A DNA stretch of 64,000 bases from Cohaesibacter haloalkalitolerans (GTDB lineage Bacteria > Pseudomonadota > Alphaproteobacteria > Rhizobiales > Cohaesibacteraceae): positions 1 through 64,000 of the forward strand of contig NZ_QNUM01000007.1 of assembly GCF_003574655.1 (NCBI RefSeq), read 5' to 3'. The notes below the pieces were generated by a model. That model saw nothing but the letters and a program-made list of their open reading frames with translations, did no database searches and was not told the DNA's origin. Positions 2,098 through 42,704 of this stretch are shown piece by piece (position 1 is the stretch's first letter; the number at the start of each line of letters is the position of its first letter). The position numbers and the translations under genes are program-made.

Positions 2098-2220
2098 GGT
2101 TGTCTCCTGGTCCTGTAGTGGCCCTCGTTGCAGGGCCGGGATATGAGGTCTGATGAGAAGTGCGCTCCGGTGGGGCGAATGACTGGCCTTCGCCCGCTGC
2201 CGGGTGCGTCTTTGCGTGCT

Positions 2221-2721
2221 TCAGAGAAGCGGTTTGACCTTGCCGAGCAATTCGGCGGCCATGGCTTCGGGGTCTCTGGAAATGTCGATACGAATGACAT
2301 CAGTCTCGCCATCGGGCACTTCCAATGCGGCGATCTGGCTTTCGATCAGTTTGACCGGCATGAAATGGCTGCGCCGCTCGGCCATTCGGGCACGGACAAG
2401 CTCCTTGGCGCCATCCAGAAAGATGAAGCGCAGGTTCGTTGTCGCAGCCCGGAAGATGTCCCGGTAGGATTTGCGCAAGGACGAACAGCTGAGTACCCGC
2501 GTCTCGCCGTTGGCATCCCATTGGCGCATGGCGGAGGCCAGGGTTTCCAGCCAAGGCTTGCGATCATCGTCCGTCAGCGGGATTCCGGCGGCCATCTTCT
2601 TGACATTCGCCTCTGAATGATAGGCATCGCCCTCTTCAAACGGAACATTCAGATGGTCAGCCAGCAGCTGTCCAAGTGTCGATTTTCCGCTTCCGGAAAT
2701 TCCCATGACCACGATAATCAT
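2221..2721 (-). CDS. gntK: Gluconokinase
   Basis: Phosphorylates D-gluconate with ATP to 6-phosphogluconate. The 166 aa protein is a typical small P-loop gluconokinase: Walker A GISGSGKST at residues 7-15, followed by the family-typical EGDAYH and NVKKM stretches that bind substrate. It sits between gnd and edd, so its product feeds directly into the enzymes encoded on either side (oxidative pentose phosphate or Entner-Doudoroff). ATG start with a GAGG a little upstream. The 104 bp between gnd and gntK holds nothing recognisable. Confidence 0.95.
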   Translation of the reverse strand: MIIVVMGISGSGKSTLGQLLADHLNVPFEEGDAYHSEANVKKMAAGIPLTDDDRKPWLETLASAMRQWDANGETRVLSCSSLRKSYRDIFRAATTNLRFIFLDGAKELVRARMAERRSHFMPVKLIESQIAALEVPDGETDVIRIDISRDPEAMAAELLGKVKPLL

Positions 2722-2825
2722 TTCTCTGGCCTCACAGTCTCGTTTCGTTGCGTTGCAGACGACAGGCGTCTCTTCCTATTGTTTTTCTTATTTGGTTTTG
2801 GCTTCCGGTCGCTCACGCATTCAGA

Positions 2826-4223
2826 TCATTCCGGCGTCACGTTCCAGTCGAAGTGGAAATGCCCGGAACGATCTGTGCGTTCAAAGGTGTGGGCGCCGAA
2901 ATAATCGCGCTGCCCTTGAATGAGATTGGCACCGACACACTGGCTGCGCCGTCCATCAAGCCAGGACAGGGCGGAATAGAAGCAGGGAATCGGTGTTCCC
3001 GTGGCAGCAGCAACGCCCGCAACGGCCCGCATCGCCGTTTCAGAAGCATTGAGGACGCCACCGGCAAAGGAGCTTGCCAGCATATCGGTGTCCTGAGGCA
3101 TGGAGGCGATCGGGTCCAGCATGACCGAACGGATGATGCAACCGGCACGCCAGCCGCGGGCGACTGCGGCAAGATCCGTGTTCCAACCATTGGCTTTGGA
3201 AGCAGCCGCAATCAGCTCAAGCCCCTGAATATAACAAGCGAGCATGGCAGCAGGCAACGCCGCGCCGATCTGCTCGGCCATGGCTTCACCATCGATAGCC
3301 TGCAACGGAGACAGGCGTTTTTCAAGCGCAAGGCGCTCACGGCCCGAAAGCGCCCGGGCCAGAAAGGCGGCAGCAATCGTCGGTATGGCCACGCCATATT
3401 CAAGTCCGGCTTCAGTTGTCCAGCGGCCAGTGCCCTTATGTCCTGCCGCATCCTTGATGATTTCGAGGATCGGGCGATCCGTTTCCGGATCGATGGTATT
3501 GGCAATGTCTGCAGAGATTTCAAGAAGATAGGAAGCTGCCGGGCCACGATTCCATCTGGAAAAGAGGGAGGAAATTTGTCCGTGGTCGCGCCCGGCAGGC
3601 CCAGACAGCAGCAGATAGGCTTCCGCCAGAATCTGCATCTGGGCATATTCGATTCCGTTGTGTACGGTCTTGACAAAGTGCCCTGCTCCGCCAGCCCCGT
3701 GGGCGGCATAGCAGGCCTCACCATCAGGAGCCTTGGCGGCAATGGCCGAGAACAGGTCATCAACATGGGCAAGCGCCTCGCGATCACCACCCGCCATGAG
3801 AGCTGGCCCAAAGCGCGCGCCGGTTTCTCCTCCGGAGACCCCTAGACCCACGAAGACAAGATCTCTGGCTTCGAGCAGCGCGGCGCGGCGCTCCGTATCC
3901 CGATAAAAGGAGTTGCCCCCGTCCATCACGATATCCCCTGCAGACAGCAGAGGAGACAAGCGGGCGATCATCTCGTCCACCGGCTCTCCGGCCTTGATCA
4001 TCATCAGGATCCGGGCCGGTTTTTTCAAAGAGGCCACAAGACCTTCAAGGCTGTCGTGCAGCCCGACACTCGCACCCAGCGCCTCACGCGCCCCTTCCAA
4101 TGCCTCGGGGAAGGCATCGTAAGCGGAAACGGAGAACCCGTGGTCAACGAAGTTGAGCGCGAGATTGCGCCCCATGACACCGAGTCCAATAATGGCAATG
4201 TCTGCGAGTGTGCGGGTTTGCAT
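2826..4223 (-). CDS. gnd: 6-phosphogluconate dehydrogenase, decarboxylating
   Basis: Oxidises 6-phosphogluconate to ribulose-5-phosphate and CO2 with NADP. The 465 aa length is near the usual 470. The dinucleotide loop GLGVMG is at residues 13-18, the substrate signature GVSGGETGAR at 128-137, and the catalytic Lys185 and Asn189 lie in FVKTVHNG. The start has AAAGGTG 9 nt upstream and lies 12 nt after the dgoK stop, so it is translated as part of the same operon. Its presence beside edd gives the operon both fates of 6-phosphogluconate. Confidence 0.96.
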   Translation of the reverse strand: MQTRTLADIAIIGLGVMGRNLALNFVDHGFSVSAYDAFPEALEGAREALGASVGLHDSLEGLVASLKKPARILMMIKAGEPVDEMIARLSPLLSAGDIVMDGGNSFYRDTERRAALLEARDLVFVGLGVSGGETGARFGPALMAGGDREALAHVDDLFSAIAAKAPDGEACYAAHGAGGAGHFVKTVHNGIEYAQMQILAEAYLLLSGPAGRDHGQISSLFSRWNRGPAASYLLEISADIANTIDPETDRPILEIIKDAAGHKGTGRWTTEAGLEYGVAIPTIAAAFLARALSGRERLALEKRLSPLQAIDGEAMAEQIGAALPAAMLACYIQGLELIAAASKANGWNTDLAAVARGWRAGCIIRSVMLDPIASMPQDTDMLASSFAGGVLNASETAMRAVAGVAAATGTPIPCFYSALSWLDGRRSQCVGANLIQGQRDYFGAHTFERTDRSGHFHFDWNVTPE

Positions 4224-4235
4224 CGAATTTCACCT

Positions 4236-5159
4236 TTACTTGCTGTTTACGCCATGCAGGGCTGCCAGAGCGCGAACCCCGGCGAGCGTTGCATCCTTGG
4301 AGGATATGTGTCGGCTGGACAAGCCCATATGGGTCAGCGCATGGCTGTAGGGCTTTGCTAGCCGGTCGGCACAAACAAGCAAAATTTCTCTGCCTTCGCA
4401 TTCATAAATGGCGCGCATAGCCCGGATTTCCGAGCCAATGAGCATGCCGGACAGGAAACTGGCGGTCTGGGACTGTTCAAGATCGCCATAGAGCACCCGT
4501 GCCCGAGCCTTGAACAGGTGGTTGAGCAGTCCACCGGCTCCTTCCACCTGCGCGAGGCCCTTTTCAAAGCCATCCGAGTCGAACTCTGCAGACGGGTCAG
4601 CCATCAGGCCGAGGATCGAGTGTTTGCTCATCACCTCGTAAACTTCCCCTGTCATCGAGGTATGGAACCGGGTGAAGACACCATCCTGCACTTCGCACCA
4701 TTTGCTGTGGGTGCCGGGCAGGCAAACCAGTCCGCTCTCAAGGCCAAGGCTTGCCAAGGCTCCAAAGATCTGGACCTCCTCGCCACGAATGACGTCGGCG
4801 TCCTGTGGCGCTCCGGACTGGCGAACGCCGGGGATGATGTAGGTATCGGCCATATCGGCAACAGGCACAATATCGCGGACAAGCTCCTCGCCCCGCATCG
4901 GCAGCGGTGGTTGCGGTGCCTGTTGCCAGCCCTGGGGCGCCCCGACCATACCGGCAAGATAAACCGGAATGGTCTCGGCGCTGTCAGCACGCCAGCCATC
5001 GAGCTGGCTTCTGGCATAGTCGGCGAATTCGCTGCGCTGCAACGCCCGCATGCCCTTGCCTTCGGTGATTTCGGCAAGAATGGTGCCCGTGTCGGCTTCC
5101 AGCAGCCACGCCCTGAAGGAGGTGGTGCCCCAGTCGACAATGATCAGCTTGTTGGTCAT
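4236..5159 (-). CDS. dgoK: 2-dehydro-3-deoxygalactonokinase
   Basis: Phosphorylates 2-dehydro-3-deoxy-D-galactonate (KDGal) to the 6-phosphate, the second step of the De Ley-Doudoroff galactonate pathway. The N-terminal phosphate-binding motif DWGTTSFRAW starts about residue 9. I use the ATG at 5159, which overlaps the dgoA stop as ATGA and has GGAAGGG 7 nt upstream, giving 307 aa. An in-frame ATG at 5174 is less well placed. Immediately follows dgoA and precedes gnd. Confidence 0.94.
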   Translation of the reverse strand: MTNKLIIVDWGTTSFRAWLLEADTGTILAEITEGKGMRALQRSEFADYARSQLDGWRADSAETIPVYLAGMVGAPQGWQQAPQPPLPMRGEELVRDIVPVADMADTYIIPGVRQSGAPQDADVIRGEEVQIFGALASLGLESGLVCLPGTHSKWCEVQDGVFTRFHTSMTGEVYEVMSKHSILGLMADPSAEFDSDGFEKGLAQVEGAGGLLNHLFKARARVLYGDLEQSQTASFLSGMLIGSEIRAMRAIYECEGREILLVCADRLAKPYSHALTHMGLSSRHISSKDATLAGVRALAALHGVNSK

Positions 5160-5797
5160 TTCATGCCCTTCCATTTGCTTACCAGAGCACGGGCTGCATT
5201 TCTGACTTCTTCGTCAGTCCGTCCCGGCTTCCACAGATCGGAACCGATGCCGAACCCGGCTGCGCCTGCGGCGACATATTCCTCGAACTGGTCAGGCCCC
5301 ACACCGCCAACGGCAAGAACGCGCATGGCGGGTGGCAGGACAACCTTGACGTCCTTGATATATTGACCGCCAAACCGGGCGGCGGGGAAGAATTTGAGCA
5401 CGGTTGCACCCGAGCGGGTTGCCAGTAGGGCTTCGGTCGGCGTCAGGCAACCGATGCAGGACGGCATGCCAAGCGCGTTTGCCTTGCGGATAACGTCCGG
5501 ATCAGTATTGGGTGTTACGATAAACTGCGCTCCGGCATCATATACAGCCTGAGTGTCCTCGGGGCTCAGCACCGTTCCGGCACCAATCATAATGCCTTCG
5601 GGAGCAGCCTCAACCATTTCCCTGATGGCGTTTGTCGCATCCGAAGAGGTCAGCGGCACTTCGATGAGGGTGAAGCCTTCCTCGACAAGGATGCCGAGGA
5701 GGGTTTTGGCACGTTCGGCCGGAACGCCGCGCAGGATGGCCACAAGGGGCATGCTGGCAAAGGCGGTCTCGAACGTGTCCTTGAAGGCTCCTACCAT
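5156..5797 (-). CDS. dgoA: 2-dehydro-3-deoxy-6-phosphogalactonate aldolase
   Basis: Cleaves KDPGal to pyruvate and D-glyceraldehyde-3-phosphate. The 213 aa class I aldolase has the KDPG/KDPGal signatures: AILRGV at 20-25, the proton-transfer Glu46 in LIEVPLTS, and Schiff-base Lys135 in [11 protein letters not shown]. The FFPA..FG..YIK stretch is typical of DgoA rather than Eda, and dgoK/dgoD neighbours agree. The start overlaps the dgoD stop by 7 bp (ATGGTAG). Whether it also serves gluconate-derived KDPG cannot be read from sequence. Confidence 0.94.
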
Positions 5798-6939
5798 TCT
5801 GCCACACTCCCGTCTTCATGACGCCAGATCGGGTTGCGCCAGTTGTGCCCTTCCTTGGAGCGCTCAATGACATACTCCTCGTTGATCTCGACACCAAGGC
5901 CCGGACCGGTCAGAGCATGGACATAGCCATCGACAATGGTCAGCGGGCTCGGATCAACCATATAGTCGAGCACGTCGTTGCCGACATTATAGTGGATGCC
6001 CATGGACTGTTCCTGAATGAAGGCATTGTAGGAGACAAAGTCAAGATGCAGGGAAGCTGCCAGGGTGCATGGGCCAAGCGGGCAATGCGGAGCAACAGCA
6101 ACGTCATAGGCTTCAGCCATGGCGGCAACCTTGAACACCTCGGTGAGGCCGCCGCAGTGGCTGAGGTCCGGCTGGATGATGTCGACCATGCGCTGTTCCA
6201 GCACATCGCGGAAGCCGTAGCGGGAGAAGATGCGTTCGCCCGAGGCGATTGGATAGCCAAGCCCGCCGCCGATTTCCTTGAGGCAGGACAGATGCTCGGT
6301 CAGCACCGGCTCTTCAACGAACATCGGGTGATACTGTTCCAGTTCGCGCAACAGGGCCTTGGCCATCGGGCGATGGACGCGACCGTGGAAGTCGATGGCA
6401 ATGCCGACATCCGGGCCGACGGCCTGCCGGGCTTCGGCAACGCGCGCAACGGCATCATCAATCTTGGCGTGGCTGTCGACGAAGGCCATTTCCGGCGTGC
6501 CGTTCATCTTGAAGGCGGTGAAGCCGCTGGCGACCACTTCCTTGGCCTGACGACCGACGTCGTTGGGGCGGTCCCCGCCAATCCAGCAATACATGCGCAT
6601 CTTGTCGCGCAGCTTGCCGCCGAGCAGTTCATGCACAGGAACGCCCAGAGCCTTGCCCTTGATGTCCCACAGGGCCTGATCGATGCCGGCGATGGCTGAC
6701 ATGAGAATCGGGCCGCCGCGGTAGAAGCCGGTCCTGTAGAGCATCTGCCAGATATCCTGGATGTGGCGCGGGTCGCGGCCAATCAGCTCTTCGGCCATTT
6801 CCTCGACAGCAGCCTTAACCGTGCGGGCGCGGCCCTCGATGACGGGTTCACCCCAGCCGCTGACGCCTTCATCCGTTTCGATTTTTACAAACATCCAGCG
6901 GGGAGGCACCAGCCATGTTTTTACATTCGTGATTTTCAT
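5791..6939 (-). CDS. dgoD: D-galactonate dehydratase
   Basis: Enolase-superfamily (mandelate racemase type) dehydratase converting D-galactonate to KDGal, the pathway entry step. I place the start at the ATG at 6939 ([13 protein letters not shown], 382 aa), which matches the family's usual N terminus. The longer frame to 6990 adds 17 unlikely residues. The metal-binding and acid/base segments are visible around [12 protein letters not shown] and FVEEPVL, then [13 protein letters not shown]. GalD-type length and the neighbouring dgoA and dgoK make the substrate assignment strong. It follows the TRAP large permease by 86 bp. Confidence 0.94.
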
Positions 6940-31567: not shown

Positions 31568-32539
31568 TCAGGGTTTGAGAATGGTCGCGCCGGTGGTCTT
31601 GCGGCCTTCCAGCGCCTTGTGGGCCTCGGCGGCATCCTTGAGCGGCATGGATGCGACGACATCAGCCTTGACCGCTCCACTGACGAGCCGGTCAAACAGG
31701 TCGGCTGCCCGCATTTCCAGATCAGCCCGTTTGGCCACATAATCGAACAGAACGGGACGACAGGCGGCCTTAGACCCGCTGGCCAGATCTGAGAGCTTGA
31801 AATCATCGATCATGCCGGACGACTGGCCGAAGTTTGCGAACATGCCGAAAGGCTTGAGACATGCGATGGAGCCGCGCCATGTGTCCTTGCCGACACTGTC
31901 GTAGACCACTTCGCACCCCTGCCCGCTGGTCAGGTCCATGACTTTCTCGGCAAAATTCTCTTCGCGGTAATTGATCACGTCGCTGTAACCATGCTTGAGC
32001 GCCAGTGCCACCTTGTCGGCTGAACCTGCCGTGCCGATAGCGCGGGCGCCAAGCGCCTTCAACCACTGGCCCAGAATCAGCCCGACCCCGCCAGCAGCGG
32101 CATGCACCAGCACCGTGTCCCCGGCCTTGACGGCATAGGATGAGGTGACGAGATACTGCGCGGTCAGGCCCTTGAGCATGACCGATGCTGCAAGGTCATC
32201 CGAGACGCCATCAGGCAGCACGACCAGACGATCAGCAGCCAGCACCCGGCGCTCGCGATAGGCGCCGAACTTGAGCACGTAGGCAACCCTGTCGCCAACC
32301 TTGAGACCTTCGACCCCTTCACCGATGGCTTCGACCACACCCGCAGCCTCGGCTCCCGGGATCATGGTGCTATCCGGCCAGGGGTAGAGCCCCGTGCGGT
32401 TGTAGACGTCGATAAAGTTGACGCCAATCGCGGTGTGGCGTACCAGCGCCTCGTTCGGGCCGGGTGTGCCAGTTTCCAGCGCGCACCACTCCATGACTTC
32501 CGGACCGCCAGGTCTGGAAGCGACAAGTGCCATATCCAT
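31568..32539 (-). CDS. NADPH:quinone oxidoreductase (MDR/zeta-crystallin type)
   Basis: The 323 aa medium-chain reductase lacks the zinc-ligand pattern and carries the nucleotide loop AAGGVGLILGQW. ATG 32539 has GGAG 6 nt upstream; the frame extends to 32560. It reduces quinones or enone-like compounds with NADPH. It is the last gene of the sugar-ABC/propeller operon (77 bp after the AhpD-like gene), where it may serve a catabolic reduction or detoxification. Convergent with the plus-strand terminator. Confidence 0.88.
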   Translation of the reverse strand: MDMALVASRPGGPEVMEWCALETGTPGPNEALVRHTAIGVNFIDVYNRTGLYPWPDSTMIPGAEAAGVVEAIGEGVEGLKVGDRVAYVLKFGAYRERRVLAADRLVVLPDGVSDDLAASVMLKGLTAQYLVTSSYAVKAGDTVLVHAAAGGVGLILGQWLKALGARAIGTAGSADKVALALKHGYSDVINYREENFAEKVMDLTSGQGCEVVYDSVGKDTWRGSIACLKPFGMFANFGQSSGMIDDFKLSDLASGSKAACRPVLFDYVAKRADLEMRAADLFDRLVSGAVKADVVASMPLKDAAEAHKALEGRKTTGATILKP

Positions 32540-32616
32540 TTTCTTCTCCGCTTTTTGCACCGACGCCAGCTCCCCAGAGCGGCGACGGCGCCAAAGTCAT
32601 TTGGTCAAGCTGGCGA

Positions 32617-33024
32617 TCAGGCCAGGAATTCGGGGTCGACGGGGACCTGCATAGCAGTCACCAGGTGGTTGGTCTGGGCAGCCAGACCCACAATCGACAA
32701 CAACTCCGCATAGGTGTCGTCCGTCATGCCCTTGGCCCGGGCCTGAGCAGTGTGGGAATGGAGGCAGTAGGAGCAGGAGTTGGCTGCCGATACGGCGATA
32801 TAGATCATCTCGCGGGTCATCGGGTCGATGTTGCCCGGCGTCATCATGACAGCCTTGAGGCCTTCCCATGTGCGTTTCAGCAGGGCAGGATCGGCTGCAC
32901 CCAGAGCCCGCCAGAAATTGTTGATGAAGTCGGTTTTGCGCAATTCGCGGATTTCGTCAAAGACTTCCTTTACGGCCGGGATCTTGTCGGCTTCTTCATT
33001 GGTGAGCAATTTGACAGTTGCCAT
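32617..33024 (-). CDS. Carboxymuconolactone decarboxylase/AhpD-like protein
   Basis: 135 aa all-helical protein of the CMD superfamily. The redox-type motif Glu72, Cys84-x2-Cys87 and His91 (SCSYCLHSH) is that of AhpD-like peroxidase/disulfide proteins rather than of true carboxymuconolactone decarboxylase. Strong ribosome site AGGAGG. It lies 12 nt after the aminotransferase gene. Its role in this operon is unclear: peroxide protection or an uncharacterised reaction on the imported compound. Confidence 0.85.
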   Translation of the reverse strand: MATVKLLTNEEADKIPAVKEVFDEIRELRKTDFINNFWRALGAADPALLKRTWEGLKAVMMTPGNIDPMTREMIYIAVSAANSCSYCLHSHTAQARAKGMTDDTYAELLSIVGLAAQTNHLVTAMQVPVDPEFLA

Positions 33025-33036
33025 CTTGGTTTCCTC

Positions 33037-33891
33037 CTAGGCGTGTGCCCATTCCATGTACAGAGAGCGGGCCTTCTTGGTGATAGGCCCGTATGCGAGT
33101 TCCCGGTCTTCTATGCGAGATACCGGAATCACCTTGGAGATGTTGCCGGTAGAAAAGATTTCGTCCGCTTCCATGAAATCCTGAACCGTCAGGGTCATTT
33201 CGTGGACGGTGTAGCCAGCGCCGCGCAGCAATCCAAGCACGCGCTTGCGGGTGATGCCAGCAAGGAAGGTGCCGTTCGGGATGGAGGTGAAGACCTCGCC
33301 GCCGCGCACCATGAAGACGTTGGCGGTGGCAAGCTCTGCCACGTTACCGGCACAATCGGTCACCAGCGCATTGTCGAAGCCCTTCCGCTGGGCCTCACGC
33401 ACCATGCGGGCGTTGTTGGCATAGAGGCAGGCGGCCTTGGCATTGGTTGGTGCAACGGCGATGGTGGGGCGGCGATACTGGGTCGTGGTGATGGAAAAGC
33501 CGGTCGGTTCAACCATCGGAATTTCCTCAAGGCAGAGCGCAAAGTCGGTTGAGGATGCAAGCGGCGGCAGTGTTCCGATATCGCTTTCCTCGGCCCAGTA
33601 CATCGGACGGATATAGACGTCGGTGTTCGGCGCAAATTTCTTGATACCTTCCTTGGCCAGAGCCTCGATTGCCTCGCCCGTGAAGGTCGGTTCCAGCATC
33701 AGCGCCTCGGCGGAGCGGTTGATCCGCTGACAATGCAGATCAAGGTCCGGAGAGACACCTTCAAACAGGCGAGCGCCATCGAACACCAGCGATCCCAACC
33801 AGGTTGCATGAGACGCCGCACCCAAAATGCGCACATCGCCCTCGTGCCACTCACCCTTGTAGTAGGTCCACATTGCGCGCTTGGCAGCCAT
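33037..33891 (-). CDS. Fold-type IV PLP aminotransferase (IlvE family)
   Basis: 284 aa from ATG 33891, which has AAGGAG 7 nt upstream; ATG 33897 is too close to that site. The branched-chain/D-amino-acid transaminase family features are present: the Schiff-base lysine in PTNAKAACLYANN (Lys152 of this start) and the cofactor Glu in GNVAELATANVF. Its place in a sugar-type ABC operon suggests transamination in a catabolic pathway rather than branched-chain amino acid synthesis, but the substrate is not readable. Confidence 0.86.
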   Translation of the reverse strand: MAAKRAMWTYYKGEWHEGDVRILGAASHATWLGSLVFDGARLFEGVSPDLDLHCQRINRSAEALMLEPTFTGEAIEALAKEGIKKFAPNTDVYIRPMYWAEESDIGTLPPLASSTDFALCLEEIPMVEPTGFSITTTQYRRPTIAVAPTNAKAACLYANNARMVREAQRKGFDNALVTDCAGNVAELATANVFMVRGGEVFTSIPNGTFLAGITRKRVLGLLRGAGYTVHEMTLTVQDFMEADEIFSTGNISKVIPVSRIEDRELAYGPITKKARSLYMEWAHA

Positions 33892-33924
33892 TGTCATTCT
33901 CCTTGATAAAGTCCGGCAGGTCCG

Positions 33925-35421
33925 TCAATGGACCGCCGCATACATGATTTTCTCTTCAGTTGCCTCGGAGGGCGAGAACTCCTCCACAATGCGCCCCTGT
34001 CGGCAGACAAGAATGCGATCGGACAGATTCATGATCTCCGGAAGGTAGGACGAAATCACCACCACAGCCAGCCCCTGATCGGCCAGATCGTTGATGATCT
34101 GGTGAATTTCGGCAATCGCGCCGACGTCCACGCCGCGGGTCGGTTCATCGAAGATGACCAGCTTCGGCTGCTGCACGAGGCCCTTGCCGATCACCACCTT
34201 CTGCTGGTTGCCGCCGGACAATTCGACCACGCGAGCATTGTCGTTGATAGCCCGGACGTTGAGTTTTCCCGACCAGTCGGCTGCGACGGCCTTCATCTCC
34301 TTGTGGCTGACATACCATGCCTTGTCGTGTCCGGCAGCGATCAGCCCGGCATAGATATTCTCGGCAATCGACATGGTCTCGAAGAAGCCCTCGCTCTTGC
34401 GGTCTTCTGTCACATAGACAATGCCGTCATTGACCGCTTCGCGCGGCACATAATAGCGGGTCGGCTTTTCGTTGAACACGATGGTGCCACCACGCAGGAA
34501 GTCGCGCTTGTAGATTCCAGAAACGATCTTGAAGGTCTCGGTGCGGCCCGAGCCGATCAACCCGAAGACGCCGGTGATCTGGCCGGCAAAGATCGAAAAG
34601 GAGTTGTTGCGAACCATGGCTCCCATCGAGATGTCCTGCACGGACAGCACCTTCTTGCCAGCCTTGCGCACGCCGCTTTCGCCCCGGTCGCGGTAGAGCG
34701 CACCGGAGAGGGTCCGGCCGACCATGGCGGCAATGATGGACTCGCGGGTGAAGGTCTCGGTCCTGTCGCTGGCCACCAGCTCGCCATCACGCAGGATGGT
34801 GATGCGGTCGGAAATCTGCAAAGCTTCCTCCAGCGCGTGACTGATGAAGATGATCGATACGCCGCTTTGCTTGAGCCGCTCGATGAGCGCGAAAAAATGA
34901 CGCTTCTCTTCCGGCGTCAGGGTTGCCGTCGGTTCGTCGAAGATGATCACTTCGGCCTTGTGATGCACCGCACGGGCGATTTCGACCATCTGCCGCTTGG
35001 CCGCCCCCAGCGTTGCCACCAGCGCCGTGGGGTCGACCGAGAAGTTCAGCGATTGCAGGAACTGCTGGGCGGAAATGAAGGTGCCGCGCAGGCGGTTGAG
35101 GAAATTCTCCGAGCCCAGATAAAGATTCTGCGCCACGGTCATCGATGGCACCAGACTGGTCTCCTGAAACACCATGGCGATCCCGGCGTCCAGCGCTTCG
35201 TTCGGGTTGGCAAAGACCGTTTCCTTGCCGTGGTGGAACATCTTGCCAGCGGTCGGTTCGACAACACCAGCCATCATTTTGGTGAGGGTCGATTTGCCCG
35301 CACCATTTTCGCCAAGCAGGGCATGGACCTCGCCCTTGTGCAGTTCGAAATCCACGTCCTTGATGGCAGGCACGCCACGGTAGGCCTTGGTGATCTTTTC
35401 CATGCGAATGATGGGATCCAT
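33925..35421 (-). CDS. Sugar-type ABC importer ATPase with two nucleotide domains
   Basis: 498 aa RbsA/MglA-type double ATPase. Domain 1: Walker A GENGAGKST at 37-45, Walker B VIIFDEPTATLTPEE, and a signature reading LGAAKRQMVEIA rather than LSGGQ. Domain 2: degenerate Walker A GLIGSGRTE, signature LSGGNQQKVVIGKG, Walker B LVIFDEPTRGVDVG. ATG 35421 lies 4 nt after the propeller stop; the longer frame to 35502 is discarded. It serves the permeases at 36478-38601 and 39929-40900. Confidence 0.93.
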   Translation of the reverse strand: MDPIIRMEKITKAYRGVPAIKDVDFELHKGEVHALLGENGAGKSTLTKMMAGVVEPTAGKMFHHGKETVFANPNEALDAGIAMVFQETSLVPSMTVAQNLYLGSENFLNRLRGTFISAQQFLQSLNFSVDPTALVATLGAAKRQMVEIARAVHHKAEVIIFDEPTATLTPEEKRHFFALIERLKQSGVSIIFISHALEEALQISDRITILRDGELVASDRTETFTRESIIAAMVGRTLSGALYRDRGESGVRKAGKKVLSVQDISMGAMVRNNSFSIFAGQITGVFGLIGSGRTETFKIVSGIYKRDFLRGGTIVFNEKPTRYYVPREAVNDGIVYVTEDRKSEGFFETMSIAENIYAGLIAAGHDKAWYVSHKEMKAVAADWSGKLNVRAINDNARVVELSGGNQQKVVIGKGLVQQPKLVIFDEPTRGVDVGAIAEIHQIINDLADQGLAVVVISSYLPEIMNLSDRILVCRQGRIVEEFSPSEATEEKIMYAAVH

Positions 35422-35425
35422 GTCC

Positions 35426-36481
35426 TTAGCCCTCCACCTTGATATCTGCAATGTCGAGCAGGACATCCCCGCCCTTGGAGGCCACAATGATCTGGCCATC
35501 ATGTTCGATGGCGCAGCAGACGCCGTGGCGGTTGCCGTTGGCGCGGCTGTGCATGCTGGTGAGCGGGTTCATGGCCTTGCCGAGCCGCACCACCATGCCG
35601 TAGGAACGGGCCGGAGCCCATGCCTTGTAGACGCCCATGGTGCGGATGCCACCACACTGCAGCGGCTCAAGGAAACTGCGGTTGGAATAGAGCGCCGGAG
35701 CAATCCAGTATTCACGCGGCACGCTTTCCATCATGTCATGGCGATAGTGCTTTTCCTGCAGCACCAGCTCGACAAGCCGGTTGCGCGGCGCGAACACCGA
35801 CAGGATGGCACCGCCCTCGGCAGTCGGCACAATGCGGGCGGGATAGCCCGGGATCTGGTCGATCAGCACGGAGATATTCTTCTCCGCGTCCATGATCATC
35901 ACCCTGTGGCGCCAGCTTTCCGAGAAAGCCACGCGGCCACCGCTCAGCGGGCAGAGGCCATAGGGATAGGCCAGCCCTCCGGCAACCTTCTCAAAGGCCT
36001 CCTTTGGCGAATGCCGCACCCAGATGGACCCGCAGGCCTTCTTGCTCATCAGGTCGGCCGCCCAGTCCGAGCAGGCATGTTCGGATGAGCCATTGGCCAG
36101 CCACAAGGAGCCGTCGTAGGAATAGGCCAGCGCCGTGATTGCCTTGATTTCCTCCAGCAGACGGACGGGTTCACCGTCGACAAACAGCTGTCCGGTTTCC
36201 AGAGCAACCGCCAGCTTGTCATCGATTGACACGGCAAGGGCCGTGATTGGTGCTTCAAAGGAGCGCAGCAGTTTCGGCTCGGCCCCCTTGTTGACGACAT
36301 AGATGGCATTGCCTGATGTGGCAATCAGTTCGCCCTTGTAGATGGCCAGATTGTCCGGCTCGGACAGATGGGTGAGGATATCGGCTTCATCGAGCACCGT
36401 GTTGGGGCGGAAGGCACCATCCATGGGCGGAATGGTCACCGCCTTGCCGCGGAAAATGTCGAGGATGGGATCGAGGATCAT
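35426..36481 (-). CDS. Stand-alone strictosidine-synthase/SMP-30-like beta-propeller
   Basis: The 351 aa protein starts at ATG 36481, overlapping the previous stop (ATGA). Repeating blades are visible, with FSESWRHRV and IPGYPARI segments that mirror FSESWRSRI and MPGYTDNI in the C-terminal half of the upstream fusion. It is thus a diverged paralogue. No signal peptide, so cytosolic. Members of this fold hydrolyse lactones or act as sensors, but several putative metal-site positions differ from the fusion's, so catalysis is uncertain. Confidence 0.75.
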   Translation of the reverse strand: MILDPILDIFRGKAVTIPPMDGAFRPNTVLDEADILTHLSEPDNLAIYKGELIATSGNAIYVVNKGAEPKLLRSFEAPITALAVSIDDKLAVALETGQLFVDGEPVRLLEEIKAITALAYSYDGSLWLANGSSEHACSDWAADLMSKKACGSIWVRHSPKEAFEKVAGGLAYPYGLCPLSGGRVAFSESWRHRVMIMDAEKNISVLIDQIPGYPARIVPTAEGGAILSVFAPRNRLVELVLQEKHYRHDMMESVPREYWIAPALYSNRSFLEPLQCGGIRTMGVYKAWAPARSYGMVVRLGKAMNPLTSMHSRANGNRHGVCCAIEHDGQIIVASKGGDVLLDIADIKVEG

Positions 36482-38601
36482 GCTTTTTCTCCCCAATAGG
36501 ACGTCATGCCGGTCCATGTCGGGTCGGCACCTTCGATGTCGAACAGCCCGATGCGGTTGTTCAGAATGCCGCCGATGAAGAGTTTGCCCTTGTGCTCGCG
36601 CATCGAGGTCACCATCGGGTGGTTCTGACCGGTGAGGTCGCCCATGGTCTGGATGATCTTGCCGTTGTCATCGAATTTGACGATGCCGCCGGTGTTGATG
36701 TTCGGGAACAGCCAGTCATCCTGTGGCAGGCGGCGGGTCATGCGCTTGCGCATGTCCGGATGACGCAGCGACAAGTCAAAGCTCGGAGTGCGCATGCCAA
36801 GCCAGGCCATCCAGTAGGTGCCGTCGGAAGCACGGTTGATGTTGTCGGTGTAGCCCGGCATGTCCTTGATGACGCATTCCACGGTGCCCGCCTTGGGGCC
36901 TGCGATCCAGTAGCGATGAATGCGGCTTCTCCAGCTCTCTGAGAAATACAGCGACTGACCGTCATGGGCGATGCAGACACCGTTGGTGTAACGATAACCG
37001 TCGAGCAGGGTCTTGGTGGAGCCATCCTTGGGATCATAGACCAGCAGGCGACCGGTGCCACGGTTCTCGATGGAATCGAGCATCCATTCATGGGCATCGT
37101 AGCGCTTGGTACTGTCGGTAAAATAGATCTTGCCATCAGGCGCGATGTCTAGATCGTTGGGATCGCGCATACGGGCATCATCGACAATGGAGGTCAGCGA
37201 GCGTCTGGTCTCGGCTGAAAGCCGCGTAACCTCGCGATCCGGTGAAATCTTGTAGAGCCCCATGGCACCGACGCAAGAGATGAGGTTTTCATCCTTGTCA
37301 AAGGCCAGCCCGAGCGGGAAGCCGCCAACATGGGCGAAGACTTCCGAGCGCTTGTAGTCCGGAGCAAAGAAGCGGACGATCTCGCCGTGCCGCGTGCCGC
37401 AATAGAGGTTGTCATTGCGGTCGAGAATGACGTCTTCCGGCCCTTCCAGCTCGCCAAGGCCGATATGCCGGGCCGAGGACAGCTTGTTGTTGAGGGCATA
37501 GGCGGAGCCAGACCCCGGCTCTGCGGATTCGGCCTTGCCCATTTTGAGGTAGACCGGCGCGACATAGATCTCGTTGAGGACCTTGTGGCGGTTCTTCAGC
37601 CAGCGGATATCGATGGTCACCGCAAAGGCCAGCATGATGCCGAGCACCATCTGGTTGGTGCCAGTACCAAAACCGAGGCGGATGAGGCCGTTGGTCATCA
37701 CCAGAACGATGACCGCCCCCATGATGCCCTTGGCCACCGAGCCACGCCCACCGCCAAGGGAGTTGCCACCGACCACCGCAGCCGTCAGCGCAAGGATTTC
37801 CAGCCCGTTGCCGGTGCCGGGGCCAGCACTGGACAGGCGTGTTGCCATCAGGAAGCCGGATACTCCGGCGCAGAAGCCGGAAAAAATGTAGGTCATGAAG
37901 ACGATGCGCCGCACCCGGATACCAGCATTGTGCGCGGAGCGGCGCGATCCGCCGACCGCTTGCACATGCCAGCCCGGACGGGAGCGCGTGAGAGCAATGT
38001 GGGTGATCAGCGCGAACACGATGGCGGTCAGAACCGGCATCGAGAAGCCGAACAGCGTGCCGTCACCGATGAAGTCCCAAAGGTCCGAGGAGGCAAAGGA
38101 CATCTGGGTCGCAGCGCCATATTGCACGACCAGAATGTCGAACAACGCACGCCCGATGATGAAGGTCACCAGCGTGGTCAGGAAGGCACGCAGACGCAGG
38201 AAGCCGATGAGATAGCCATTGATCGCACCGCAAGCGACGCCGGTAGCGATGGCAGCCAGCAAGCAGACCCAGACCGGGGCTTCGAAAATGAAGAAAGTGG
38301 CAACGGACGCAAAGGTCGCAAGCGCAAAGATGGAGCCGACCGACAGGTCGATACCACCCCCCAGCATGACAACCGTAAGCCCGGTCACGACAAGCGAGAA
38401 TTCACCGAGCTGGCGCGTCGACTCCTGCAAGGAATAGGGTTTGAAGAAGCCCGGAATCGCCGATCCGAAGGCAGCCACTGTGATCACCAGGGCAAGAAAG
38501 GGAATGGCGTTATCCGTCCATCTCTTGGTCAGAATCTCCCCGATGAGGTGATCGGGAATGGCATTGTAGCGCCATGCTTGCAGTTTTTCACGAAAGGCCA
38601 T
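36478..38601 (-). CDS. ABC sugar permease fused to a beta-propeller (SMP-30/strictosidine synthase-like)
   Basis: 707 aa. Residues 1-335 are an RbsC-type permease with about ten helices and the motif VMLGGGIDLSVGSIFAL (78-94) and VVGGNSLGGGRGSVAKG (276-292). A basic segment DIRWLKNRHK (331-340) follows the last helix, which predicts a cytosolic C terminus. Residues about 375-707 form a six-bladed propeller with GPED (387-390), PND (481-483), NGV (540-542), FSESWR (553-558) and GYTDNI (583-588). These are the positions that carry metal ligands in gluconolactonase/SMP-30 enzymes. The frame is continuous with no sign of error. The role may be lactone processing at the pore exit or substrate sensing (inference). 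Confidence 0.9.
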   Translation of the reverse strand: MAFREKLQAWRYNAIPDHLIGEILTKRWTDNAIPFLALVITVAAFGSAIPGFFKPYSLQESTRQLGEFSLVVTGLTVVMLGGGIDLSVGSIFALATFASVATFFIFEAPVWVCLLAAIATGVACGAINGYLIGFLRLRAFLTTLVTFIIGRALFDILVVQYGAATQMSFASSDLWDFIGDGTLFGFSMPVLTAIVFALITHIALTRSRPGWHVQAVGGSRRSAHNAGIRVRRIVFMTYIFSGFCAGVSGFLMATRLSSAGPGTGNGLEILALTAAVVGGNSLGGGRGSVAKGIMGAVIVLVMTNGLIRLGFGTGTNQMVLGIMLAFAVTIDIRWLKNRHKVLNEIYVAPVYLKMGKAESAEPGSGSAYALNNKLSSARHIGLGELEGPEDVILDRNDNLYCGTRHGEIVRFFAPDYKRSEVFAHVGGFPLGLAFDKDENLISCVGAMGLYKISPDREVTRLSAETRRSLTSIVDDARMRDPNDLDIAPDGKIYFTDSTKRYDAHEWMLDSIENRGTGRLLVYDPKDGSTKTLLDGYRYTNGVCIAHDGQSLYFSESWRSRIHRYWIAGPKAGTVECVIKDMPGYTDNINRASDGTYWMAWLGMRTPSFDLSLRHPDMRKRMTRRLPQDDWLFPNINTGGIVKFDDNGKIIQTMGDLTGQNHPMVTSMREHKGKLFIGGILNNRIGLFDIEGADPTWTGMTSYWGEKA

Positions 38602-38800: not shown

Positions 38801-39829
38801 TTATTGTCCGGCTTCGGCCTGAAGAGCCGAGAGATCCCAGCAGCTGTCAGGCTTCATGTTTTCCTTGGTGGTGGCCTTCAGCAGCGTGTAGATGTAAGGC
38901 GCAGCGGTGCCAGCCGGCTGGCCGCTCTGGAGCAGATACTTGATGATCGCCACCATGTTGTGGGTTTCCTGAGCAAGGTCGGTCATGACCACGGCGCCAT
39001 AGGTGCCATCGGCAATCAGGTCACAGTCGGCGGCCTTCTCGCCGCCACCGGTGGTGACGAGGAAGACGCTATCCTGTTTGCCTGCTTCGCGAATGGCAGC
39101 AGCAGCGCCCGAGGCATCGCCATCCCAGAAGTCGATGACACCGCAGATTTCAGGATTCTGCTGCAGCATGGTGGTGGTCACGTTGCGCGAGGTGGTGGCG
39201 TCCCAGTTGGAGTCGGGTTTTGCAACCACTTCGAACTCGGGATATTTGGCCAGCACTTCCATGATGCCCGCATACTGGAAGAGGCTGGTTGCGTTGACCT
39301 GATCGCCCTGCACCAGACCGATCTTCTTGGAGGAATCCGGACCGCAGCCCTTGACGACGGCTTCTGCTTCGAGACGACCCAGCTGTGTCCAGTCACTGCC
39401 GACATAGGCATCTGCCTTGAAGTTGGCCGGATTGTCCACGAGGATCACATAGATGCCAGCCTTCTGGGCGCGCTTCATCAGCTTGGAATAGGAGTTCATG
39501 TCAGGTGACATGATGATCAGCACGTCCGGTTTGTTCTCGGAGGCAATGGCCTCGGTGATCGCCTGCGCACCGGCTTCAACGCTCCAGTTGGGGTCGCGGG
39601 TTTCGAAGATGCCGCCGAAGGCGTCGACTTCGCGCTTCAGGATGGCGGCCCAGCCCTGCGCAAGGTCGAAGCCCATGGCCATCGGCACCAGCATGATGCG
39701 CTTGCCAGCCATGGCCTTGGCATAGATTTCCGGTGCCGGGTCGCCTGCGGCCGACACTTGGGTGACGAGCGTAGCGGAGCTGATGGTGAGCGCCGCGGAG
39801 GCGGCCATAAGGGTCTTGATGATGTTCAT
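38801..39829 (-). CDS. Sugar-type ABC periplasmic binding protein (RbsB family)
   Basis: 342 aa with a signal peptide ending near Ala27/28 and the periplasmic binding protein type 1 fold: the DVLIIMSPDMNSYSKLMKRAQKAGI and DFWDGDASGAAAAI regions, the latter being the usual aspartate-rich sugar contact. Second gene of the operon, between the two permease genes. The ligand is unknown; the fold suits sugars, autoinducer-2-like or polyol compounds. Confidence 0.9.
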   Translation of the reverse strand: MNIIKTLMAASAALTISSATLVTQVSAAGDPAPEIYAKAMAGKRIMLVPMAMGFDLAQGWAAILKREVDAFGGIFETRDPNWSVEAGAQAITEAIASENKPDVLIIMSPDMNSYSKLMKRAQKAGIYVILVDNPANFKADAYVGSDWTQLGRLEAEAVVKGCGPDSSKKIGLVQGDQVNATSLFQYAGIMEVLAKYPEFEVVAKPDSNWDATTSRNVTTTMLQQNPEICGVIDFWDGDASGAAAAIREAGKQDSVFLVTTGGGEKAADCDLIADGTYGAVVMTDLAQETHNMVAIIKYLLQSGQPAGTAAPYIYTLLKATTKENMKPDSCWDLSALQAEAGQ

Positions 39830-39928: not shown

Positions 39929-40900
39929 TCAGATATCCCCCTGCTGCGCGGTCTGTTCGTCACGCGGATTGAGGATGCCATCAACGATGATGGCGCCGAG
40001 CAGGATCCCCGCCTTGATGAGATTCTGATAAAGCAGTGGAATGTCGATGATCGTCATGGCGTTGAGCATGATGCCGATGAGCGCCGCACCGAACAGCACG
40101 TTGCGCACGCCGCCCTTGCCGCCGGACAGCCCGATGCCGCCGATCACCGTGATCAGCACGATGTCATAGAGCAGGTTGGAGTTGACGATGCGGGTGTTGA
40201 TGGAATGCAGGCTGGCAGCGGTCAGTACACCGGCAATGAAGGCAATGAGCGCCGAGATGACATAGCGCAGAACCATCATTGGCCGCACCGGCATACCGGA
40301 GTTGCGCGCGGCTTCCGGATTGTCACCGGCGTAATAGACATAACGGCCCCATTTGCTGTAGCGCAGGAACAGAAAGGTGGCGAACGCCAGCCCGGCAAAG
40401 ATGAAGACTTCCACCGGCACGCTGAAAAAGCGCAAGCCGCCGAGGATCTCCACCCAATGGGCGGTCGGGACCGGGACTGCATCGGTGGTGATCAGCTGGG
40501 AACGCACAAAGCCGAATACGAAGGAAGAACTGGCAAGGGTCACGAAAATGGCCGGAACATCGGCATAGGCGACCAGAATACCGTTGATGAGGCCCATGGC
40601 AATAACACCGGCAAGCGTCAGCAGCAGGGCCGTGCCCTCCCCCATGCCCGATCCGAGCATCTGCAGATAACAGGCAACAGACATCGCCATGATGGCAACC
40701 ATCGACAGGTCGATGCCACGGCCGATGATAATCATCGCCATTCCCAACGCCAGAATACCCAGTACGGAGACCGAGCGCACGATGGCAACCAGATTGTTCG
40801 CGGTGAAGAACCCGGGCAGCATTAGCGAGGCCAATGCGAAGATCGCGATGGTAATCGCCAGAACGATGCTCTCCTGATTGAGGTTTTTCAAGAAACTCAT
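39929..40900 (-). CDS. Sugar-type ABC permease (RbsC family)
   Basis: 323 aa, about ten helices, with MAMIIIGRGIDLSMVAIMAM and IGGIGLSGGKGGVRNVLFGA as the family markers. First gene of the operon, and unfused, unlike its partner at 36478-38601. The two would form a heterodimer carrying only one propeller domain. Confidence 0.91.
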   Translation of the reverse strand: MSFLKNLNQESIVLAITIAIFALASLMLPGFFTANNLVAIVRSVSVLGILALGMAMIIIGRGIDLSMVAIMAMSVACYLQMLGSGMGEGTALLLTLAGVIAMGLINGILVAYADVPAIFVTLASSSFVFGFVRSQLITTDAVPVPTAHWVEILGGLRFFSVPVEVFIFAGLAFATFLFLRYSKWGRYVYYAGDNPEAARNSGMPVRPMMVLRYVISALIAFIAGVLTAASLHSINTRIVNSNLLYDIVLITVIGGIGLSGGKGGVRNVLFGAALIGIMLNAMTIIDIPLLYQNLIKAGILLGAIIVDGILNPRDEQTAQQGDI

Positions 40901-41214: not shown

Positions 41215-42162
41215 TTATATGACCTGAAGGTATCCATATTGTGCGAATTGAGCCGGAAATTCTTCCTGATGTTGCTCAGAGAAAATGTGCTCTCCGAGGG
41301 AATCAATGAAACGCTGGCCGTAGGCCGGGAGCGGCTGGCGGATGTTCCACATCGCGCAAATGCCGAAATGGATCGGTTCTCCCTTGAGGGAAATGGGCCT
41401 GCTGCGCAATTTTGGCTCCCGTGGCCGGGTTGAGGAAGGAACAACGGCGACGCCGTTACCTCCGATCGCCATGGCAAGCAGGGTATGGGGGGAATTGCTC
41501 TCCAGAACAACGCGCGGCACCACGCCGCTGACGCGACAGGCCGCATCAAAGACCTCACGCGACACATGCTTGGTGTTCAGCGTCAGCACGGGAAGCGACA
41601 GCAGTTCCTCGATCTCGATCGGCTCCTGGGTATCGCCAAGGAATTCGGCGTTGCCAACAGCAAGAAACCCGAGCTGGCCCAGCGGGCGGCTTTCCAGAAT
41701 GTCGATCGGGGCCGATGGTTCGGCGCTGATCGTCAGATGAAAGACCCCGTCCACCAGCTTGCTGGCCAGTTCCGGGCCGCCGCCATCTTCAAGACGGATC
41801 TCGATATCTGGGTTGTCTTCCGTCCACTGTTTGAGAAAAGTCGGCATATAGCGCTCGATCAACTGGGAACAGGCGCCGATCTTCAGCAGCCCGGATTCTC
41901 CACCCGTCAGATCACCGGCAAAGGTTCTGAGCTCCCGATCTGCGACCAGAACATTGTTGATCTTGGCCAACAGCGCCTCACCCTGCGGGGTGAAGCGGAT
42001 GTTGCGGCCCGTCTTCTCGAACAGTTTGACCCCGAGATAATCCTCAAGCGCCTTGACCTGTCGGGAAAGGGCCGACTGGGTGATATTGAGACGCTCGGCA
42101 GCCTTGGTAAAATTCATCAATTCGGCAACAGCGACAAAGCTGGTGTAATTGCGAATATCCAT
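41215..42162 (-). CDS. LysR-family transcriptional regulator
   Basis: 315 aa from ATG 42162 (MDIRNYTSFVAVAE...). N-terminal winged helix with FTKAAERLNITQSALSRQVK at about 18-37 and a C-terminal type 2 periplasmic-fold effector domain. The frame runs on to 42225 but only this start gives the family's N terminus. It is oriented with, and directly upstream of, the ABC/propeller operon and is its likely activator. No strong ribosome site seen. Confidence 0.92.
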   Translation of the reverse strand: MDIRNYTSFVAVAELMNFTKAAERLNITQSALSRQVKALEDYLGVKLFEKTGRNIRFTPQGEALLAKINNVLVADRELRTFAGDLTGGESGLLKIGACSQLIERYMPTFLKQWTEDNPDIEIRLEDGGGPELASKLVDGVFHLTISAEPSAPIDILESRPLGQLGFLAVGNAEFLGDTQEPIEIEELLSLPVLTLNTKHVSREVFDAACRVSGVVPRVVLESNSPHTLLAMAIGGNGVAVVPSSTRPREPKLRSRPISLKGEPIHFGICAMWNIRQPLPAYGQRFIDSLGEHIFSEQHQEEFPAQFAQYGYLQVI

Positions 42163-42704
42163 TGAACATGACCTGTTTTGAAAAGACGGCAAAAAATTGA
42201 CCCCATGAGCTAAGGCGAAATTCAAATTTTTGTCAAATCTTCTTGCTCGGTGGGGTCAAATACGGTGCTTCGGCGGTGGCAGGATCAAGTCTCGACGCGA
42301 CCATCCACAGGTTCCCCTGTCGCGGTCACGGCCTATGCGGAAACCCGTAACCTTGGCTTATTCGCCTGTTTCTGCCAACAAAGGAGGATCACACCACCAG
42401 TCAGGGCGGCCGAAAGAGGTTTCCGGTTGTTTCCGCCCCTTGCCCTCTGTGCTCTATGGGACGGTTTCTGCCTGCAAAGCTTTCTCAATAAAATTCAATG
42501 TGCTATTGAATCTGCATGGAACAAGGCCATTTCTGATGAAAAGATACATTTTATTTGGAAAGTTTGGTTAAGCTAAGGTTAGCTGATCAGGCTAACGTGC
42601 CATTGAGTTTGGAGTTTGCAGTTTTGCTGTCTCGGCTGACATTGCGGAAAGACCACAGGTTCGGTGCGCTTTCGGGGCGCAACCGAGGCTGGCGTGCGTC
42701 CACG
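42163..42704. other. Divergent intergenic region lysR / tamA
   Basis: No gene supported. A 9-bp inverted repeat, TTGACCCCA (42197-42205) and TGGGGTCAA (42251-42259), flanks 45 bp just upstream of lysR and could be a regulator site. The right part may contain the true tamA start: a TTG at 42624 has GGAG 9 nt upstream and would give the signal peptide a basic N-region. Confidence 0.5.

Follow-up and report, generated by a model that had tools for sequence, protein, structure and literature searches.

The 64,000-nucleotide stretch of Cohaesibacter haloalkalitolerans analysed here (contig NZ_QNUM01000007.1, below called the window) contains a five-gene unit encoding an ATP-binding cassette (ABC) importer of the CUT2/RbsC type. 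As its domains and gene order show, the unit consists of a permease (PermA), a binding protein, a second permease fused to a beta-propeller, a separate second propeller (Prop2), and an ATPase (Table 1). Both a cognate binding protein and a double-module ATPase are present at the locus. The in-frame open reading frame (ORF) of the fusion, which encodes 707 residues, had been noted in a preliminary description made from the DNA alone, which left out that it lies on the minus strand. Also absent from that description were the Prop2 gene, whose start overlaps the stop of the fusion gene by 4 bases, and the wide spread of the five-gene unit.

The fusion protein and its distribution

The permease half contains the BPD_transp_2 domain (PF02653) at residues 65-327, covering positions 9-268 of the 269 in the Pfam profile with 118.6 bits against a cut-off of 26.8, and thus the RbsC-type permease seen earlier stands. 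The top NCBIfam scores are those of ribose, allose, and galactofuranose permeases, and in that scan the fusion falls short of the equivalog cut-offs (RbsC, PRK09512: 148.2 bits vs 398). Since its scores are under all curated equivalog cut-offs, this half is classified by sequence as an RbsC-type (CUT2) permease, not as RbsC itself.

The propeller half has Pfam matches SSL_N (367-411), SGL (412-602), and Str_synth (482-568), all above the gathering score. The strictosidine-synthase-like (SSL) families PF03088 and PF20067 score 80.6 vs 25 and 54.9 vs 18.9 bits, respectively. The SMP-30/gluconolactonase family PF08450 scores 59.2 vs 26.3 bits, and its match spans only positions 27-203 of 246. The first PDB sequence matches are strictosidine synthases and rice TGW6; gluconolactonases match weakly, also in the profile search. 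The PDB sequence matches and the rows listed in the fold searches are propellers only. As judged by these comparisons, the fused propeller is nearer to strictosidine-synthase-like proteins than to gluconolactonase/SMP-30 proper. The latter was dropped as the closest family, as Pfam, PDB sequence and profile, and fold searches all favour the former. Of the initial assignment to an SMP-30/strictosidine-synthase-like domain, the propeller is retained and the second part of the name fits better. On domain content, the whole protein belongs to the PF02653 permease family and the SSL/SGL propeller superfamily, and to no named equivalog.

For the fusion, AlphaFold gives a model with a mean pLDDT (predicted local distance difference test) of 64.4 and a pTM (predicted template modelling score) of 0.54, with weak stretches within the propeller. 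It matches strictosidine synthase in VIA-align with Z 22.0 (3.4 Å over 268 residues). The predicted six-bladed fold rests on homology and on this match; calling the fold established, as was done before, overstated the case.

No stop codon or frameshift was found between residues 335 and 375, and the relatives speak against an assembly error. In the first annotated loci examined, from alpha-, beta-, and gammaproteobacteria, an identical five-gene order was observed in seven of seven. Systematic searches for the fusion covered 398 Pseudomonadota genomes including that of the window (the phylum sample) and 397 genomes of the order sample, and those for Prop2 the phylum sample, with at most five candidates scored per genome. 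In the phylum sample, 32 genomes match the propeller with E no higher than 1e-40. Eleven of them contain 17 fusions, every one in an open frame of at least 707 amino acids and with E < 1e-160. The remaining 21 contain stand-alone proteins only, at 23 places, in frames of 354-520 amino acids and with E > 1e-83. A clean gap in frame size and E thus sets the fusions apart from the stand-alone propellers. Six of the 23 stand-alone places (genomes G077, G391, G406, G280, G322, and G034) have stop codons within the match, and are either pseudogenes or overruns of the match.

The order sample yielded 61 copies of the fusion in 52 genomes. Open frames of at least 707 amino acids contain 59 of them; contig ends truncate the remaining two (G745, G566). 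Chance read-through, an assembly artefact, or an oddity of a single genome are ruled out, as the fusion recurs in alpha-, beta-, and gammaproteobacteria, and the architecture with permease and propeller in one protein is near certain.

The family of the window has the fusion in 11 of 20 genomes, all of them from its own genus. The closest named relative among the matches listed is Cohaesibacter marisflavi, with 96% identity over the propeller; the genome of the window itself has one full-length match. The importer occurs in many soil and marine bacteria. The fusion query is matched over at least 80% of its length by fifteen plasmid records. When one genome per species was scanned with the propeller profile, at least 522 relatives were obtained, of which the best 80 were retained. 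Four genomes (G074, G210, G489, G606) have three diverged copies of the fusion each, pointing to diversification of the cargo.

Neighbourhoods were gathered for 140 partly redundant loci, with genes called by our own codon-score method. Some loci overlap (e.g. L163 and L024), and 69 fusion proteins are left at 88% identity. Two loci at contig ends (L039, L201) have no fusion frame longer than 500 amino acids. Prop2 adjoins the fusion in 137 of 138 loci, the remaining one (L202) being a contig end. Similarly, the phylum sample contains 17 Prop2 genes in the same 11 genomes, one beside every fusion; all other matches to the Prop2 profile (E > 1e-23) are cross-matches to fused or stand-alone propellers. 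Where the contig includes all five positions (133 loci), the exact five-gene order on one strand is observed in 129. The exceptions are two contig ends (L034, L081), a locus with broken ORFs (L084), and a locus with a shorter, unclustered ORF at the place of the ATPase (L165). In L084, a Brucella pituitosa record, the binding-protein and Prop2 genes are each found in two ORFs, so that the system looks decayed here.

Table 1. Genes of the importer unit in the window and adjacent genes
Feature	Length (amino acids)	Position	Strand	Remarks
LysR-type regulator, upstream		41215..42225	minus	start perhaps nearer 42162
Partner permease without propeller (PermA)	323	39929..40900	minus	Pfam/NCBIfam
Periplasmic binding protein (Peripla_BP_4)	342	38801..39829	minus	Pfam
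Permease-propeller fusion	707	36478..38601	minus	single ORF and Pfam; RbsC-type permease ~1-335, linker 336-378, SSL/SGL propeller ~379-707; metal-site positions E389, N482, N540, D586/N587
Second propeller (Prop2)	351	35426..36481	minus	no Pfam match, degenerate metal site, no N-terminal anchor
ATPase, two ABC modules	498	33925..35421	minus	ORF extendable to 35502
Class IV aminotransferase, accessory		33037..33897	minus	NF009896, 492 bits vs cut-off 262
CMD (carboxymuconolactone decarboxylase)/AhpD-family protein, accessory		32617..33024	minus	CxxCxxxH motif
NADPH:quinone-reductase-like protein, accessory		31568..32560	minus	326.9 bits, under cut-off 348

Metal site, second propeller and cellular side

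The fusion residues which we take to be the cross-family counterparts of the SMP-30/gluconolactonase metal ligands are E389, N482, N540, and D586, with N587 adjoining the last; the fusion of the window has all of them. The set corresponds to the Ca2+ ligands Glu, Asn, Asn, and Asp of the DrSOD propeller, which are given in PMC12362111 as the same in diisopropyl fluorophosphatase (DFPase) and in the gluconolactonase XC5397. As proposed in the preliminary description, the metal-site positions are retained: E389, N540, D586, and N587 are invariant in all 137 fusions from the partly redundant loci, and remain so in the 69 left by dereplication. Position 482 is asparagine in 98 of the 137, which form class I and include the window, and aspartate in the 39 of class II. 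In a quick tree, class I (35 of the 69 dereplicated rows) is split from the rest with an SH-aLRT (Shimodaira-Hasegawa-like approximate likelihood ratio test) value of 100.

The stand-alone relatives are called SSL here by their match to the fused-propeller profile, and 14 of the 23 places in the phylum sample were compared. In the joint alignment all 14 have E, D, N, and D in the metal columns, and the column of N587 contains eleven N and three G. An SGL protein from the genome of the window has N, N, and D in columns 482, 540, and 586; its first ligand fell off the E389 column. This protein aligns with XC5397 at the motifs EGP, SPND, PNG, and PDG. Thus the metal-ligand positions of the gluconolactonase/DFPase type are kept in the fused propeller, which is predicted to bind metal.

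Prop2 is itself a propeller. Profile comparison with the fused propeller gives 99.7% probability (E 2e-25), and its AlphaFold model (pLDDT 87.3, pTM 0.87) has as top VIA-align matches TGW6 (Z 30.2, 3.0 Å, 266 residues) and strictosidine synthase (Z 30.0, 2.1 Å, 260 residues). The places of the ligands are occupied by other residues. Among 139 Prop2 sequences, the four ligand places have D in 123, T in 122, Y in 71 (N in 15), and A in 88 (S in 27, G in 22). Aspartate is never found at the place of D586, and arginine occupies that of N587 in 134. In the window the corresponding residues are D43, T116, Y174, A215, and R216. Prop2 and its relatives have a conserved motif HSRxxGxxHG near the C terminus; together with the arginine, it may form an anion or partner site. 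It appears from these residues that the fused propeller keeps a site of hydrolase type and its partner Prop2 has lost it. A dead partner beside an active enzyme is a frequent arrangement.

Residues W506, R618, M621, and W630 are common to the fusion and Prop2 and are not found in the stand-alone relatives, which hints at a duplication. This is contrary to the propeller tree, where the fused copies group with the stand-alone relatives and Prop2 is outside; the sole outgroup of this tree is very long.

The loop charges of 137 fusion sequences agree with ten helices and both termini inside, with loop limits set by hand from the helices of the AlphaFold model. The mean numbers of basic minus acidic residues are, from the N terminus, +1.3 (N terminus), +0.4 (out), -1.0 (in), -0.7 (out), +2.0 (in), -2.8 (out), +3.7 (in), +0.7 (out), +1.0 (in), +0.1 (out), and +2.5 (C-terminal tail). 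The exceptions to the charge rule are the inside GGGIDLS stretch, which is negative, and two mildly positive outside loops; it is the larger contrasts that agree with this arrangement. A hydropathy scan alone gives eight segments, vs ten helices in the model. The fusion aligns with PermA up to the last helix, and therefore no additional anchor has been gained. Four model helices lie between the C-terminal tail and loop 207-229, presumably the coupling loop that faces the ATPase in RbsC-type permeases.

Bacterial exported proteins tend to avoid cysteine. The fused propellers contain 4-8 cysteines (69 dereplicated sequences) and Prop2 1-11 (67 sequences); the stand-alone relatives contain none in 13 of 14 cases and one in the last. 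All 14 have a hydrophobic N-terminal segment (hydropathy over 17 residues at least 1.46, median 2.66), and no such segment is present in the linker of the fusion (at most 1.22) or in Prop2 (at most 1.09). Given the difference in cysteine content, this suggests that both propellers are cytosolic and the stand-alone relatives are exported. The cytosolic side of the fused propeller, claimed already in the preliminary description, is well supported by the loop charges and the cysteine content, on which a periplasmic location was rejected.

Neighbouring genes and candidate cargo

The genes around the unit differ between the classes; neighbours on either strand were counted. Full neighbourhoods are available for 83 copies of class I and 34 of class II, to which the following counts refer. 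An AhpD-like gene is found near 80 of the 83 (24 of 27 after dereplication) in class I and near none of the 34 in class II. Class I copies also have a quinone-reductase-like gene (30 of 83) or a class IV aminotransferase gene (19 of 83), the latter in class I only. All 90 AhpD-like neighbour proteins contain CxxCxxxH, which we take to be the AhpD-type redox motif; this suggests a redox role rather than decarboxylation. The binding protein of the window offered no clue to its ligand.

In three of the 34 class II copies (L005, L182, L187), a degradative 3-hydroxy-3-methylglutaryl-coenzyme A (HMG-CoA) reductase gene is located upstream on the same strand (TIGR00532, 424-443 bits vs a cut-off of 260). 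It adjoins PermA in L005 and L187; CoA-transferase and enoyl-CoA hydratase genes intervene in L182. An HMG-CoA lyase gene directly follows the ATPase in L187 and is on the opposite strand in L182; none was seen in L005. Shinella sp. HZN7 is one of the strains with a reductase-linked copy. In the fusion tree L005 and L187 are together with L168, and L182 branches elsewhere.

Degradative HMG-CoA reductase is encoded in 37 of the 397 order genomes, and 20 reductase loci not adjoining a fusion were fetched for comparison. Within the fetched stretches, 16 contain a MocR-type regulator, 12 a lyase, and 10 both. In five loci scanned for a transporter beside the reductase, tripartite ATP-independent periplasmic (TRAP) transporters (L229, L232, L240, L241) and a branched-chain-type ABC transporter (L235) were found. 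In L232, L235, and L240 the transporter is between the reductase and the lyase, as is the fusion system in L187. Thus the fusion system takes the place of other transporters, which is fair evidence, by analogy, that the reductase-linked copies import the compound degraded by the pathway. This suggests mevalonate or mevalonolactone as the cargo of these copies. One of the 20 loci (L241, positions 920-6562) contains, on one strand, HMG-CoA reductase, TRAP genes, and at the end a separate SGL propeller gene, a candidate mevalonolactonase.

Genes of the acyl-CoA-ligase type were observed near nine of the 34 class II copies, two of them with acyl-CoA dehydrogenase. With the reductase-linked loci this gives 12 of 34, and the earlier term sugar permease, apt as regards the RbsC type, is doubtful for this part of the family. 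In L172 (1125-3746) one ORF of ~870-890 amino acids joins an acyl-CoA ligase to an enoyl-CoA hydratase, as seen with Pfam; L174 and L189 are alike by length. The L195 member of the same cluster, with 635 amino acids, is a ligase only, and those of L196 and L197 are similarly short. An ascorbate/keto-gulonate reading of L203, based on Pfam matches to FGGY and OMPdecase, was dropped, as NCBIfam identifies glycerol kinase, pyrF, and trp genes.

Proposed mechanism, alternatives and known systems

The best reading, to which we would give an even chance, is an importer of carboxylates or lactones in which the exiting cargo is hydrolysed by the fused propeller. The binding protein, the two permeases, and the double-module ATPase would import a small hydroxy-acid, lactone, or ester, as the operons of some branches suggest. 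One permease bears, via a linker of ~43 residues, a six-bladed SSL-type propeller that is predicted to be cytosolic, with an intact site that would bind metal. This propeller is probably a metal-dependent lactonase or esterase; we infer catalysis from its conserved residues. The cargo would be hydrolysed on leaving the pore and trapped as the carboxylate. Prop2, a soluble paralogue with no such site, is a probable docking partner of the transporter or its fused propeller, given the 1:1 linkage. The cargo would differ by branch, one branch probably using mevalonate or mevalonolactone. A more detailed version is offered tentatively, with somewhat less than even confidence: an ABC importer with vectorial chemistry, in which a lactone or ester is hydrolysed by a permease-borne enzyme aided by its dead twin, mevalonolactone is probably the cargo of one branch, and an ancestrally exported propeller was moved to the cytosolic face by fusion.

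Several observations weigh against hydrolysis at the exit. The model of the fusion is weak, and class II has D instead of N at position 482, like the stand-alone relatives. The reductase is linked to only three of the 34 class II copies, and neither a reductase nor an acyl-CoA ligase is found near 22; a carboxylate cargo would thus apply to no more than a part of class II. L168, grouped with L005 and L187, shows no reductase on its 7.9-kilobase contig. A tblastn search at E 1e-6 finds no propeller gene in 19 of the 20 fusion-free reductase loci, so that hydrolysis is no general need there; the need may depend on uptake as the acid or the lactone. Finally, the genome of the window (G000) has no degradative HMG-CoA reductase (TIGR00532) at E 1e-60, and thus a mevalonate or mevalonolactone cargo cannot be transferred to the copy in the window, where the neighbours (aminotransferase, AhpD-like protein, quinone reductase) have no tie to a lactone.

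The strongest alternative, although rather unlikely, is a sensor or gate: the fused propeller would bind the cargo, its product, or metal on the cytosolic side and tune transport with no chemistry, and Prop2 would be a regulatory partner. The strict pairing with a site-less paralogue fits a control domain, and the varied neighbouring genes fit a general transport module. However, the conservation of the four metal-site residues in all 137 fusions is beyond what ligand sensing seems to need, and the solved proteins with such a site include hydrolases, namely DFPase and lactonases in the fold-match list and in PMC12362111.

Another possibility, with a distinctly smaller chance, is that the two propellers form a platform which keeps the ATPase or enzymes of the pathway in place at the pore, with a metal of structural importance only. 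Prop2 has no site yet adjoins each fusion found, and the four residues common to it and the fusion only may be contact surfaces. This leaves unexplained why the fused copy alone retains a complete site. Indeed, a sensor and a scaffold account for the pairing equally well, but not for the complete site.

A metal-dependent reaction other than hydrolysis (isomerisation, epimerisation, or condensation as in strictosidine synthase) has a slim chance. The nearest solved relatives, strictosidine synthases and TGW6, would be in its favour, but strictosidine synthase is not known to contain a metal site of this kind. Moreover, the retained E/N/N/D set is of the lactonase/DFPase type described in PMC12362111. 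That read-through or assembly has artificially joined two genes is practically excluded by the identical fusion across three classes of proteobacteria, and no point in its favour was found.

No paper on a permease-propeller fusion was found by title or beginning of abstract among the matches listed in the open literature, with subscription journals mostly outside. Database records label such proteins 'SMP-30/gluconolactonase/LRE family protein' or 'ABC transporter permease'. Either name drops half of the protein, which is a caution for annotators. ABC importers are normally regarded as delivering their cargo unchanged. A widespread importer with a conserved enzyme-type domain on its permease and a site-less paralogue would be a clean test case for a coupling of transport to the first metabolic step, and the mevalonate-linked copies offer a defined cargo.

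The system resembles the CUT2/RbsABC importers in having a PF02653 permease, a double-module ATPase, and a Peripla_BP_4 binding protein in one operon. It differs by the C-terminal propeller on one permease and the adjoining second propeller gene in the loci examined. The stand-alone bacterial relatives of the propeller share the metal columns; unlike the 14 compared, which begin with a hydrophobic segment and have hardly any cysteine, the fused propeller is on a permease C terminus, is cysteine-rich, and appears cytosolic. The SMP-30/gluconolactonase/LRE proteins (XC5397, the DrSOD propeller, regucalcin) have the same six-bladed fold and the E/N/N/D metal set, but the fused propeller matches them more weakly than strictosidine synthases. 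Propellers of the same type are naturally joined to an unrelated domain in Deinococcus, where Cu/Zn-superoxide dismutase is fused to a propeller lactonase (ten such proteins, all from Deinococcus, according to PMC12362111); these are soluble antioxidant enzymes and include no transporter.

An unfused counterpart of the fusion system is present in the genome of the window, on contig C6 (L145, 2022-8943). There an SGL propeller gene is beside genes for a binding protein, two PF02653 permeases, and an ATPase, and the stretch also includes an alcohol dehydrogenase gene. In contrast to the fusion system, the genes are separate, and the matches of this genome to the Prop2 profile are confined to contig C22, in the window. 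Peptidase-containing ABC exporters, where a cytosolic enzyme domain on the transporter processes the cargo by cleaving its leader peptide, appear to be the closest analogue. Both are fusions of a transporter with an enzyme-type domain, but those are exporters, whereas the system described here is an importer and carries a propeller.

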